Positions 18,225 through 22,446 of a stretch of 33,331 bases of DNA are shown piece after piece. The notes beneath the pieces are model-generated. The model searched no databases. It had not been told where the DNA came from and saw only the letters and a program-made list of their open reading frames with translations. The position numbers were made by a program, and so were the translations under genes. Numbering within the stretch: the stretch's first letter is position 1; the number at the start of each line of letters is the position of its first letter. Origin of the DNA: Gammaproteobacteria bacterium (GTDB lineage: Bacteria; Pseudomonadota; Gammaproteobacteria; Steroidobacterales; Steroidobacteraceae); the NCBI GenBank assembly GCA_003137095.1, contig PLET01000077.1, forward strand, positions 10,822 to 44,152. Direction: 5' to 3'.

Positions 18225-18413
18225 GGCGCTGCCTGCGGTGTTCGATGCGGATCGGGTTACCTCTCGACCCTAATTTGTAAACCCCAGGGGCCATTGCTTG
18301 CTGGCAACATTGTGCAAGTCCGCCTCGAGCGGAAAGCCTTAAGTGCCGCAGTTAGCCCCACCTGTTGCTCAGGTCGGGAGCAACGGTCCAAAACGGCATA
18401 TGCGGGTGGCGCC
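18225..18413 (+). ncRNA. ssrS: 6S RNA
   Basis: 6S RNA binds the sigma-70 RNA polymerase holoenzyme by imitating an open promoter. The region lies between zapA and the 5-formyl-THF cyclo-ligase gene, its conserved location. The ends GGCGCTGCCTGC (18225-18236) and GCGGGTGGCGCC (18402-18413) pair over 12 bp (9 Watson-Crick, 3 G-U). Inside are the family-typical GCCTTAAGTGC segment and a strong local hairpin, GTTGCTC/GAGCAAC. The exact ends are estimated from the closing stem; processing sites cannot be seen. Confidence 0.87.
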
Positions 18414-18448: not shown

Positions 18449-19033
18449 ATGAGCACGCAGAAAGCGGCCTTGCGACTGAATCTACGCGCCCGCCGGCGTT
18501 CGCTGCCGGCGGCGGAGCATCGGCGGCGGTCGGCTCTGGCCGCCAAGGCGGTGATGCGGCTGGCGGCGTTTCGCAGCGGCCGCCGGGTCGCGATGTATCT
18601 GCCCTTCGATGCCGAGATCGACCCCGCGGTGCTCATCGCCGCCGCGCGCCGGCGCGGCGTGCGCATCTACGTGCCGGTGGTCGTCAGCCGCCGCCACCAC
18701 ACCTTGAGATTTCATCCCTTGGGCGGCGGCACGCGCCGCGGCACCTTCGGCATCCACGTGCCGCGCCGCGCTGCACCGCCGGTAGCGCCGCGCTGGATGA
18801 ACCTCATGCTCGTGCCGCTGGTGGGAGTCGACCCGCAGGGACGGCGGCTGGGCTTCGGCGGCGGATTCTACGATCATGCGCTCGCTTTCCGTCGCTCGCG
18901 GCGGTCTTGGATGGGTCCCCTGCTGGTGGGGTTCGCCTTCGACTGCCAGCGTGTGCCGTCGGTGCACGCGCAACCCTGGGACCTGCGCGTCGACGCGCTG
19001 GCGACGGAAAGCGGATTGCTTCGCCTCCTATGA
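18449..19033 (+). CDS. ygfA: 5-formyltetrahydrofolate cyclo-ligase
   Basis: This enzyme converts 5-formyl-THF to 5,10-methenyl-THF with ATP, returning a folate storage or inhibitor form to the one-carbon pool fed by the glycine cleavage system. The protein has 194 residues. It shows a basic N-terminus (LRLNLRARRRSL), AMYLPFDAEIDP-like ligand residues, and the diagnostic PLVGVDPQGRRLGFGGGFYDHAL near the C-terminus. The ATG at 18449 is used because the earlier in-frame start lies inside 6S RNA. The position directly after 6S RNA is conserved and suggests co-transcription. Confidence 0.95.
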   Translation: MSTQKAALRLNLRARRRSLPAAEHRRRSALAAKAVMRLAAFRSGRRVAMYLPFDAEIDPAVLIAAARRRGVRIYVPVVVSRRHHTLRFHPLGGGTRRGTFGIHVPRRAAPPVAPRWMNLMLVPLVGVDPQGRRLGFGGGFYDHALAFRRSRRSWMGPLLVGFAFDCQRVPSVHAQPWDLRVDALATESGLLRLL

Positions 19034-19064
19034 AACCCTCTCCCAACCGTACTTGAGATAGACC

Positions 19065-19532
19065 ATGAACCACTGGCTGTTGAAATCCGAACCGGGCACC
19101 TTCAGCGTCGACGACCTCGCCAGGGCGCCGAAGCGCACCTCCGCCTGGGATGGGGTGCGCAATTTCCAGGCGCGCAACATGCTGCGCGACTCCCTGAAGA
19201 AAGGCGATCTGGCGTTCTTCTATCATTCGAGCTGTGCGGTGCCCGGCATCGCCGGGATCGTCGAGGTGGTGCGCGAGGGCTACCCCGACGCAACCGCGCT
19301 CGATCCGCGGGATCCGCACTACGACGCCGCCGCGGCCGCCGCGTCGGCGCCCCGCTGGTTCGCCGTGGACGTGAAGCTCAAGCGCAAATTCAAGCGCGTC
19401 ATCACCCTCGATGAGCTGCGCGCACATGCCGCCAGGTCGCTCGCCGGTCTGCTGATTCTGCGCCGTGGCAATCGCCTGTCCGTCACGCCGGTATCGAAGA
19501 AGGATTGGGATTTCGTTCTCACTCTCGAGTGA
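19065..19532 (+). CDS. EVE domain-containing protein
   Basis: This 155-residue single-domain EVE (PUA-like) protein starts MNHWLLKSEPGTFS. WDGVRNFQARNMLR, KGDLAFFYHSS, GIVEVVREGYPD and the late NRLSVTPVSKKDW are family signatures. EVE domains are predicted to bind modified bases in RNA or DNA; the biological role of stand-alone bacterial copies is not settled. The gene starts 31 bp after ygfA on the same strand. The upstream GAGATAG may serve as a weak Shine-Dalgarno. Confidence 0.93.
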   Translation: MNHWLLKSEPGTFSVDDLARAPKRTSAWDGVRNFQARNMLRDSLKKGDLAFFYHSSCAVPGIAGIVEVVREGYPDATALDPRDPHYDAAAAAASAPRWFAVDVKLKRKFKRVITLDELRAHAARSLAGLLILRRGNRLSVTPVSKKDWDFVLTLE

Positions 19533-19570
19533 CTCGACGCGTGTGGCTATCACACATCGGGCTACGAGTC
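19531..19570 (+). other. Nested inverted repeats after the EVE gene
   Basis: An outer pair, GACTCG (19531-19536) and CGAGTC (19565-19570), encloses a hairpin with stem GTGTG/CACAC and loop GCTAT (19541-19555). The element begins inside the EVE stop codon and ends about 13 bp before the next promoter. There is no T run, so it is not a standard intrinsic terminator. Confidence 0.4.
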
Positions 19571-19582
19571 GCGACGTATTGC

Positions 19583-19610
19583 TTGTAATTTGATTATTCG
19601 TGTATATACT
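19583..19610 (+). promoter_or_regulatory. Sigma-70 promoter of the lysine-rich micro-gene
   Basis: TTGTAA (19583-19588), a 16-bp spacer and TATACT (19605-19610) sit in a strikingly AT-rich patch within GC-rich DNA. The predicted start lies around 19617, giving a leader of about 30 nt with a good GGAG at 19635-19638. This is one of the best promoter matches in the window. Confidence 0.7.
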
Positions 19611-19646
19611 CGGACCCCGGACTAACCCGACAACGGAGTTTCTAAC

Positions 19647-19712
19647 ATGGCAGCGAAAGCAAAGAAGGCGAAGAAGAAGGTAGCTAAGAAAAAGGCCGCT
19701 AAGAAAAAGTAA
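19647..19712 (+). CDS. 21-residue lysine/alanine-rich micro-protein (histone H1 tail-like)
   Basis: The 66-nt reading frame encodes Met followed by 12 Lys, 7 Ala and 1 Val, in short repeats of the AKK/AAKKK type. It is not a conserved family I recognise. Its composition resembles the C-terminal tails of bacterial histone H1-like and AlgP-type proteins, so binding to DNA or RNA is an inference. Evidence that it is real: a near-consensus promoter, GGAG 8 nt before the ATG, a TAA stop and a strong intrinsic terminator 15 bp later, all spaced as in a compact, highly expressed gene. An alternative is that it is a leader peptide whose translation influences read-through into rpiA. Confidence 0.75.
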   Translation: MAAKAKKAKKKVAKKKAAKKK

Positions 19713-19727
19713 GCCTTCGAAAGTAAT

Positions 19728-19761
19728 CAACTGTGCCCGCGTAAGCGGGCACAGTTGTTTT
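19728..19761 (+). terminator. Intrinsic terminator after the micro-gene
   Basis: A perfect 13-bp stem, CAACTGTGCCCGC with GCGGGCACAGTTG around the loop GTAA, is followed by TTTT. It ends only 16 bp before the rpiA start codon, so any transcript reaching rpiA from the micro-gene promoter must read through it. Confidence 0.9.
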
Positions 19762-19777
19762 GGGAGTACGGAATATC

Positions 19778-20449
19778 GTGCCCGCCCGGGAGAAAAAGCG
19801 CCGCGCCGCGCAGGCGGCCCTCGGCCACGTCAAGGACGGCATGGTGCTCGGCATAGGCACCGGATCCACGGTCGCCGAGTTCGTCAAAGCCCTTCTGGAC
19901 AGCGGAATCCGGCTCGCGGGCGCGGTCTCGAGCTCCAACGCCACCTCCGCACTATTGCGCGCCGGGCACATTCCGGAACTGGATCTGAATGCCGTGGATG
20001 AGCTCGCGCTGTACGTGGACGGCGCCGATGAGGCCACCTTCCAGGGCGCCCTCATCAAGGGCGGCGGCGCGGCGCTCACCCGCGAAAAGGTCATCGCGGG
20101 CGCAGCAGCCAGGTTCGTTTGCATCATCGACGACGGCAAACTCGTGGAGATCCTCGGGCGCTTCCCCCTGCCGGTCGAGGTGGTGCCGATGGCCCGCGCC
20201 TATGTGGCCCGGCAGCTCGTGAAGCTGGGCGGCCGGCCCGTATGGCGCGAAGGGGTGGTCACCGACAACGGCAACGTGATCCTCGACGTGCACCAATTGC
20301 GGCTCACCGACCCGGCCGCATTCGAGACCGCGGCCGATCAGATCGCCGGGGTGGTGACCGTGGGGCTGTTCGCCCGGCGCCGCGCCGACGTGCTGATCGT
20401 GGGCGGCGACGTCGGGGTGCGCACCCTCGTGCCCCGGGAGCCTGTCTAG
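19778..20449 (+). CDS. rpiA: Ribose-5-phosphate isomerase A
   Basis: RpiA interconverts ribose-5-phosphate and ribulose-5-phosphate in the pentose phosphate pathway. The protein has 223 residues (219 in E. coli). It shows [37 protein letters not shown] and DNGNVILDV, containing the catalytic Glu/Lys/Asp region. The GTG at 19778 is chosen. An in-frame TTG at 19760 lies within the T run of the terminator and is unlikely. No convincing promoter lies between the terminator and the gene. The TAG stop lies in CTAG, which on the other strand is also the kup stop. Confidence 0.95.
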
Positions 20450-22320
20450 ATTTCCAGGCGCGTGCCGATTTCGATCACCCGGTTGTGGGGCAGATTGTAG
20501 TAGTCGGCGATGACCTGGGCACTGCGTGCCATCTGCATGAACGCGCGCCGCCTCAAGGGGCTGAGATCCGAACGCTGGCCGGCGATCAGTTGCTCGCGGC
20601 TCAGGAAATACGTGGTGTGCTCCGGGTCATAGGGCACCCCATGCGCCTCCGCCTCGCGCAGGATCTGCAGGATGTCCGGCTTCTCCATGAATCCCACCTG
20701 CGCCACGATGCGCACGATGCCGTCGCCCACCGGCGTCACGGTCAGGCGTTTGCTCGCCGTGACGCGCGGCTGCTCGCGGGTCACCACCGTGAGCAGCACC
20801 ACGTGTTCGTGCAGGATGCGGTTGAACTTGATGTTGTTGAGCATGGCGCGCGGGATGCCCGAAGCCTTGGCGTCGAGGAACACCGCCGTGCCCGGCACCC
20901 GCACCGGCGGGTCGCGCTTCAGGTCCTCGAGAAAATCGCGCACCGGCTTCTGTTCCCGCAGCAGCCTTCCCATCATCGAGGCGCGTCCGGTCTGCCAGCT
21001 CTGCATCAGCCAATAGATGATCAGGCCCGAGGCCAGCGGCAGCCAGCCGCCATCTTCGAGCTTGGTCAGGTTGGCGAACAGGAAGGCCAGGTCGATGATG
21101 AACAGCAGCGACAGGCCGGTGCGCAGCGCCAGGCTCTGCCGGCCGCTGCGGGATTTGATCAGGCTCAGGATCAGCGGCGTGACGATGGTCATGGCGCCCG
21201 ACACCGCCAGGCCGTAGGCCCCGGCCAGTGCGGTGGAGCTGCCGAAGCTCAGCACCAGGGAGATGGCCGCGATCATCAGCAGCCAGTTCATGGTGGGCAC
21301 GTAGATCTGTCCGACGTTCTCCGCCGAGGAATGCTCCACCCGCACGCGCGGCAGCAACCCGAGGCTGACCGCGGTCTGGGTCACGGAGAACACGCCGGAG
21401 ATCACCGCCTGCGAGGCGATCACCGTGGCCGCGGTGGCGAGGATCACGAGCGGCCACAGCGACCAATCGGGCGCCATCAGGAAGAACGGATTGGAGATGG
21501 CGGCCGGGTTGTGGATCAGCAGCGCGCCCTGGCCGAAATAATTGGCGACCAGCGCCGGCATCACCACGAATATCCAGCCGAGGCGGATCGGCGATTTGCC
21601 GAAGTGGCCCATGTCGGCGTAGAGCGCCTCGCCGCCGGTCACGCACAGGAACACGCCGGCGAGCACCGCCAACGCCGCCACCTGGTGTCCGGCCAGCATG
21701 CGCACGGCCTGCGTCGGGTCAAGGGCGAGCAGCACCCGCGGTTCGCGCACGATCCAGCCCACGCCCATCACCGCCAGGATCGCGAACCAACCGAGCATGA
21801 CCGGACCGAACATCCGGCCCACCGAGCCGGTGCCGCGGCTCTGGATGAGGAACAGCCCGATCAGCACCACCACGGTGATGGGCAGGATGGGAAACTGCGC
21901 ATTGGGCGCGGCCACGTGCAAACCCTCGATGGCGCTCAACACCGATATCGCCGGCGTGATCGCGCCGTCGGCGAAGAACAGCGCCGCGCCGAGGATGCCG
22001 AGGGTGCCGTAGACCTTGCGGCGCGGACTCTGCCTTTCGGTGTTGACCACCAGGGCGGTCAGCGCCAGCACGCCGCCCTCGCCCTTGTTGTCGGCGTTCA
22101 GCACCACGCTCACGTACTTGACCAGAATCACCAGCACCAGGGACCAGAACACGAGCGACAGCACGCCGAGGACGTGATCCGGGGTGACCGCGATGTTGGG
22201 GCCGGTGAAGCAGGCCGATATGGCGTACAGCGGACTCGTGCCGATGTCGCCGAACACCACGCCGAGGGCCGCAATCGCCAGTTGCGCGGTCCGTTTACCC
22301 GAGGAGTGTTCCACCGACAT
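20446..22320 (-). CDS. kup: Low-affinity potassium transporter Kup
   Basis: Kup (TrkD) is an inner-membrane K+/H+ symporter of the KUP/HAK family. It has 624 residues (622 in E. coli), about 12 hydrophobic helices and a cytoplasmic C-terminal domain. The first-helix signature [16 protein letters not shown] is complete, as are [27 protein letters not shown] and [13 protein letters not shown]. It follows tRNA-Gln on the same strand, separated by a strong hairpin. It converges with rpiA, with the two stop codons sharing CTAG. Confidence 0.96.
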
Positions 22321-22372: not shown

Positions 22373-22446
22373 TGGCTGGGGGACTAGGATTCGAACCTAG
22401 GTAAACGGTGTCAGAGACCGTTGTCCTACCACTAGACGATCCCCCA
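22373..22446 (-). tRNA. tRNA-Gln (anticodon CTG)
   Basis: This is a 74-nt cloverleaf with encoded CCA. The acceptor stem is TGGGGGA/TCCCCCA with discriminator G. The anticodon stem ACGGT/ACCGT encloses the loop CTCTGAC, giving anticodon CTG (22412-22414 on the complement). The T arm reads CCTAGGTTCGAATCCTAG. The acceptor start TGGGG and the anticodon identify glutamine. It lies 33 bp downstream of rpsI and may be cut from the rplM-rpsI transcript. Confidence 0.96.

Follow-up and report, generated by a model that had tools for sequence, protein, structure and literature searches.

Among described proteins, the locus reported here resembles most closely the histone H1-like proteins of the Hc2 type (Hc2/HctB and BpH1, PF07382), which have Lys/Ala-rich repeats and change in length by the number of these repeats. 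Hc2 condenses DNA, has a high affinity for RNA, and varies with repeat number between 165 and 237 aa, as against 14–26 aa for the peptides of the family considered in this work (PMC2848022). A comparable H1-like, Lys/Ala-rich polycation forms the C-terminal KPAA domain of AlgP and PhaF. AlgP combines an N-terminal helical domain with KPAA repeats and associates with polyphosphate granules, and KPAA peptides bind DNA (PMC9239181). The micro-peptide described below shares the Lys/Ala composition of these proteins, and its locus the Hc2-type variation in length by repeat units; however, in contrast to AlgP, it lacks both Pro and an N-terminal domain. Some long forms encoded next to rpiA match the HC2 model, two of the four tested doing so below the PF07382 gathering cut-off (40 bits), whereas the micro-peptide itself matches no profile.

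In attenuated operons such as trp and his, the leader peptide is encoded by a short ORF, with a hairpin carrying a T-run and an enzyme gene downstream. The micro-gene has the same arrangement but, unlike these leaders, its locus also occurs in long forms and shows no antiterminator in a consensus fold of 25 family sites; to our knowledge, Lys has no link to rpiA. By description, very short length and high basicity are traits that the micro-peptide also shares with bTHX and other tiny ribosomal proteins.

The micro-gene and its neighbourhood

The analyzed DNA, referred to as the window, is a stretch of 33,331 nucleotides from a member of Steroidobacteraceae. The features relevant to this work are the following:

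19065..19532, plus strand: gene of an EVE-domain protein, upstream of the micro-gene (Pfam EVE, 168.3 bits)
19583..19610, plus strand: sigma-70-type promoter TTGTAA-16-TATACT (-35 box at 19583-19588, -10 box at 19605-19610)
19611..19646, plus strand: leader with a GC-rich start CGGACCCC, the element CGGACTAACC, and a GGAG Shine-Dalgarno sequence
19647..19712, plus strand: micro-gene encoding 21 aa, MAAKAKKAKKKVAKKKAAKKK, with an ATG start and a TAA ending at 19712
19728..19761, plus strand: perfect 13-bp GC-rich hairpin with TTTT (stem 19728-19757 with a GTAA loop, T-run 19758-19761)
19778..20449, plus strand: rpiA, ribose-5-phosphate isomerase A, with a likely GTG start at 19778 (Pfam Rib_5-P_isom_A, 179.6 bits)

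The preliminary description had listed the promoter, a GGAG 8 nt before the ATG at 19647, the Lys/Ala frame with its TAA, and the 13-bp stem with TTTT, and all of these were found exactly as given. The promoter is the sole promoter-like match between 18500 and 21000 (shuffled sequence mean 0.3), and it lies in a patch (19570-19615) of 39% GC, compared with 68% in the whole window. After Met, the peptide contains 12 Lys, 7 Ala, and 1 Val, with no acidic residue. Of the 356 ATG-to-stop frames of 12–60 aa in the window, counted over both strands, it is the richest in Lys at 57%, followed by one at 17%; judged by Lys content among the short frames of the window, it is not a chance frame. The micro-peptide gave no match to Pfam or NCBIfam models, and there was no Rfam match at its location.

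The region of the micro-gene has an RNA fold z-score of -4.0, the longest helix being the 13-bp stem. The terminator scan reported this stem (19728-19757) on the minus strand only, because the T-run on the plus strand is below the scan threshold. The hairpin begins 15 nt after the stop codon and ends 20 nt before the GTG of rpiA; as the T-run is directly followed by GGGAG and GTG 19778, no room is left for a separate rpiA promoter 3' of the hairpin.

The Pfam-confirmed order of neighbours is 5-FTHF cyclo-ligase, EVE, (micro-gene), and ribose-5-phosphate isomerase A. Just 5' of the 5-FTHF cyclo-ligase gene, which precedes EVE, lies a 6S RNA (18227-18412, plus strand; RF00013, 76 bits). A tRNA-Gln (CTG) gene (22373-22446, minus strand) adjoins a 624-aa minus-strand ORF (20446-22320), which we take to resemble a Kup-type potassium transporter. 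A 308-aa antisense frame (18804-19730, minus strand) spans both the micro-gene and the EVE gene and bears no sign of being a gene.

Conservation within Steroidobacteraceae

In named species genomes, the promoter-leader pattern gave at least 119 matches; among 296 genomes of the order it matched 65, every one of them within the family of the window. After pooling and removal of duplicates, 119 distinct sites were obtained, the agreement of the two figures being coincidental. Because part of the leader is built into the pattern, leader conservation at these sites is partly circular. An intact Lys-rich ORF with an ATG start is present at 114 of the 119 (113 of 14–26 aa and one of 61 aa); four of the remaining five are cut by contig ends and one is interrupted beside an N. 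The preliminary description had proposed a search before rpiA in relatives for a short Lys/Ala frame with conserved start, stop, and terminator, and these 114 sites bear out its expectation; its refuting case, a promoter and terminator kept with the frame lost, was not seen among the family genomes examined. The interrupted micro-gene (L024/L103, contig PKXS01000012.1) is the only such site among the 119, and its break, beside ambiguous bases, may be an assembly join. The 61-aa version (L124, 8000 bases) is a possible re-expansion by repeats.

Without exception, the 113 ORFs no longer than 26 aa begin with MA, end with KKK, and have a GGAG-ATG spacing of 6–9 nt; Lys makes up 54–64% of the family micro-peptides. 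A sample free of the circularity of the leader pattern was taken through rpiA: of 24 family genomes without the exact pattern, 20 were queried, one yielded an rpiA fragment only, and the 19 readable ones all carry a Lys-rich frame of 15–26 aa. A DNA search matched 46 of 60 relatives (own genome included), with the repeat part alone matching outside the family; within the genus, 21 of 22 other genomes were matched. Among 30 loci that were read, 29 have the Lys-rich frame and 21 encode the identical 21-aa peptide. In 1.75 million strand-bases (L032–L150), 115 ATG ORFs exceed 45% Lys, and all encode peptides of the micro-gene.

The micro-gene is apparently single in its genome. In G000 its region is single-copy, the second DNA match being the hairpin palindrome, and the KKK-x-KKK codon pattern matches the micro-gene only; of the 16 family genomes tested, four (G111, G020, G031, and G241) have this pattern at other sites. 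The HC2 profile had no match in G000 and five other genomes of the genus. A mobile origin was considered and rejected, as there was no plasmid or phage match and no pattern match in viral contigs. Among the literature matches listed, judged on titles and abstract openings, we found no report of this gene, and nothing joining Steroidobacteraceae with histone or rpiA with ‘histone H1-like’.

Linkage to rpiA and the downstream hairpin

Of the 115 sites whose ORF is complete, 112 have rpiA downstream on the same strand (at the remaining three, the contig ends within 186 nt), and the gap is 64–190 nt in 108 of these 112. A hairpin with the core GCCCGC/GCGGGC follows the stop codon at all 112 family sites with 200 nt of sequence. 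A strict stem-plus-TTT script recognized a terminator at only 74 of 111 sites; T-runs are often short, and therefore termination across the family may be weak. The hairpin is probably a partial terminator before rpiA. At intact sites where the script found the stem, its distance from the stop codon ranges from 15 to 74 nt.

Alignment of 25 sites with 16 or 17 aa, out of 67 available, revealed a second hairpin between the stop codon and the terminator. Of 26 predicted pairs, 12 changed on both sides, all within the two hairpins, with a covariation term of only -1.7 kcal/mol; the six core pairs are invariant. The single consensus fold of these 25 sites, which exclude the window sequence, contains no helix competing with the hairpin.

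Of 118 family rows, 87 have the EVE gene upstream and 96 have fau. Among sites of the 17-aa subgroup (e.g., L032, L060, L101), fau is usually next upstream and EVE was mostly not found, which indicates that linkage to rpiA outlasts linkage to EVE.

Selection on the encoded peptide

Changes were counted on minimum spanning trees of distinct haplotypes and compared with a null in which the same base changes were placed at random; the approach is coarse, but the observed counts lie far from the null. The 16-aa group has 46 synonymous and 11 nonsynonymous changes (null mean 35.8 nonsynonymous, minimum 26 in 2000 trials), the 17-aa group 15 and 0 (null mean 9.6), and the 21-aa group 61 and 24 (null mean 58.6). 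In each of the three length groups, the observed nonsynonymous count is below all 2000 null trials. The 52 sixteen-codon rows (51 after removal of a duplicate) comprise 29 DNA versions and 5 peptides. Across 116 rows, three duplicates included, Lys is encoded by 1016 AAG and 237 AAA codons, and all four Ala codons are common. Ala is kept as well as Lys, and replacements are mainly Ser, Thr, Val, or Gly. Stop codons interchange (TAA 74, TAG 28, TGA 11). Mostly synonymous changes together with interchanging stops point to selection on the protein; from this comparison of sequences we conclude that purifying selection acts on the peptide and that the micro-gene is genuinely protein-coding.

Long Lys-rich genes at the same place in other families

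RpiA was searched for in a selection of 58 genomes, 20 from the family and 38 from elsewhere in the order, and found in 56. Among the 36 from other families, three loci were cut too short, leaving 33 checkable genomes, and 25 of these have a Lys-rich gene on the same strand, 75–257 nt before rpiA. At 23 of these loci the product is a Lys/Arg/Ala-repeat protein of 75–201 aa; two genomes of family f15 encode 20 and 23 aa. A TATAC[T/A] box stands in the matching place at 24 of the 25 loci, GGAG is present at all 25, and the GCCCGC/GCGGGC hairpin core at 18, several with T7-8 after it. The window and its family have all four features: the place before rpiA, the box, GGAG, and the hairpin. No credible Lys-rich ORF before rpiA was found, even at loose thresholds, in the other eight of the 33 genomes (G051, G079, G055, G126, G060, G047, G048, and G061). 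Outside the order, one of 48 inspected rpiA loci (133 available) has a relative, of 74 aa (L264).

Four long forms compared with the Pfam HC2 model scored 25.8 bits, 32.9 bits, and, in two cases, nothing (cut-off 40). A six-frame HC2 search of six other-family genomes known to carry an rpiA-linked gene recovered it in one, G053 (41.5 bits, with two stops read through), and missed it in G098, G121, G063, G075, and G040; in four of the same six genomes it matched other loci. A second H1-like gene not located at rpiA, L238 (G025:C7:420600-421700), encodes 77 aa, and GGGACTAACCT, which resembles the leader element of the micro-gene, stands directly before its ATG.

In the RpiA tree (57 rows), 19 of the 54 inner branches are starred; its resolution is poor, and it does not recover the family as one clade. 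Within f15, carriers of the 20-aa and 140-aa forms are sisters (100/89), indicating that length changed more than once.

Origin and possible function of the micro-protein

The relatives of the locus form a length series from 14 to 201 aa. The micro-gene is probably a miniaturized syntenic orthologue of the rpiA-linked histone H1-like protein; this assignment draws on synteny and flanking signals. The repeats are too simple to be aligned safely, and the lack of such a gene in eight of the 33 other-family genomes speaks against it. The H1-like nature that the preliminary description had guessed from composition gains backing from the syntenic long repeat proteins of other families. Most simply, these genes represent a single locus in which the coding part gains and loses repeat units and has stayed small in all of this family; the distribution over families suggests that the change ran from long to short.

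We regard as fairly probable the complete account, in which a real micro-gene with its own promoter encodes a free polycation that is a reduced orthologue of the rpiA-linked H1-like repeat protein and has a tail-like function. Confidence in this account is slightly tempered because the hairpin is found at 18 of 25 other-family loci and the Hc2 model misses most linked genes. By analogy, the likeliest function would be that of a free polycation binding DNA and/or RNA. The peptide would work like an isolated tail of the Hc2 or AlgP type, through charge; ribosomal RNA or polyphosphate may be among its targets, and binding would help to condense or shield nucleic acid. Compaction of DNA in the manner of Hc2 may require a longer chain than 14–21 aa. 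The hairpin would end many transcripts and the rest would pass into rpiA, so that one promoter would yield more micro-protein than enzyme.

The main rival is a leader peptide or attenuator, in which ribosomes slowed on the Lys run, close to the hairpin, would alter read-through into rpiA and the peptide would be discarded. It holds this place because rpiA seems reachable mainly by hairpin read-through: a short ORF and a terminator stand just before the gene that would be regulated, with no room in the window for an rpiA promoter between hairpin and GTG. The constant place before rpiA (112 of the family sites, with the narrow gap given above) also fits a cis-acting leader, as do the two hairpins that covary in the 25 aligned sites (12 of 26 pairs). 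However, 23 of the 25 other-family loci encode proteins of 75–201 aa, a length that a leader does not need, and several of these long-form loci have T7-8 after the hairpin. Moreover, Ala is conserved as well as Lys, the stop-to-stem distance varies from 15 to 74 nt, and in the one consensus fold of the 25 aligned sites no helix is seen that would compete with the hairpin. We consider this explanation unlikely.

Instead of coating DNA, the peptide might be dedicated to the ribosome or rRNA and work like bTHX or basic ribosomal tails. Its size and charge speak for this, as does the GC-rich stretch after the -10 box, a feature that occurs in growth-rate-regulated promoters. Hc2 itself has a high RNA affinity (PMC2848022); against this reading stands the resemblance of some long forms to Hc2, and we judge it rather improbable. 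If the locus made a small regulatory RNA in which the ORF was incidental, its own promoter, conserved leader, and stable hairpin would be explained, but codon-position bias, interchanging stops, in-frame changes of length, and the retention of ATG and GGAG indicate selection on the protein and make this very improbable. Returning to the polycation account, the balance of probability leans modestly towards the whole family having kept a histone H1-like protein only as its bare tail, a free gene product of 14–26 aa.

Significance

Common gene callers stop near 90 nt, and the micro-gene points to a family of conserved proteins smaller than these programs usually accept. If the bare-tail reading is true, the micro-protein would be among the shortest conserved bacterial proteins. 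Its locus offers a natural length series bearing on the number of Lys repeats required by an H1-like polycation, and on the same reading the range of 14–201 aa would show how short an H1-like tail can be and still suffice in vivo. The locus further allows tests of whether DNA, RNA, or ribosomes are coated by such a peptide, and of the reason for its link to rpiA.
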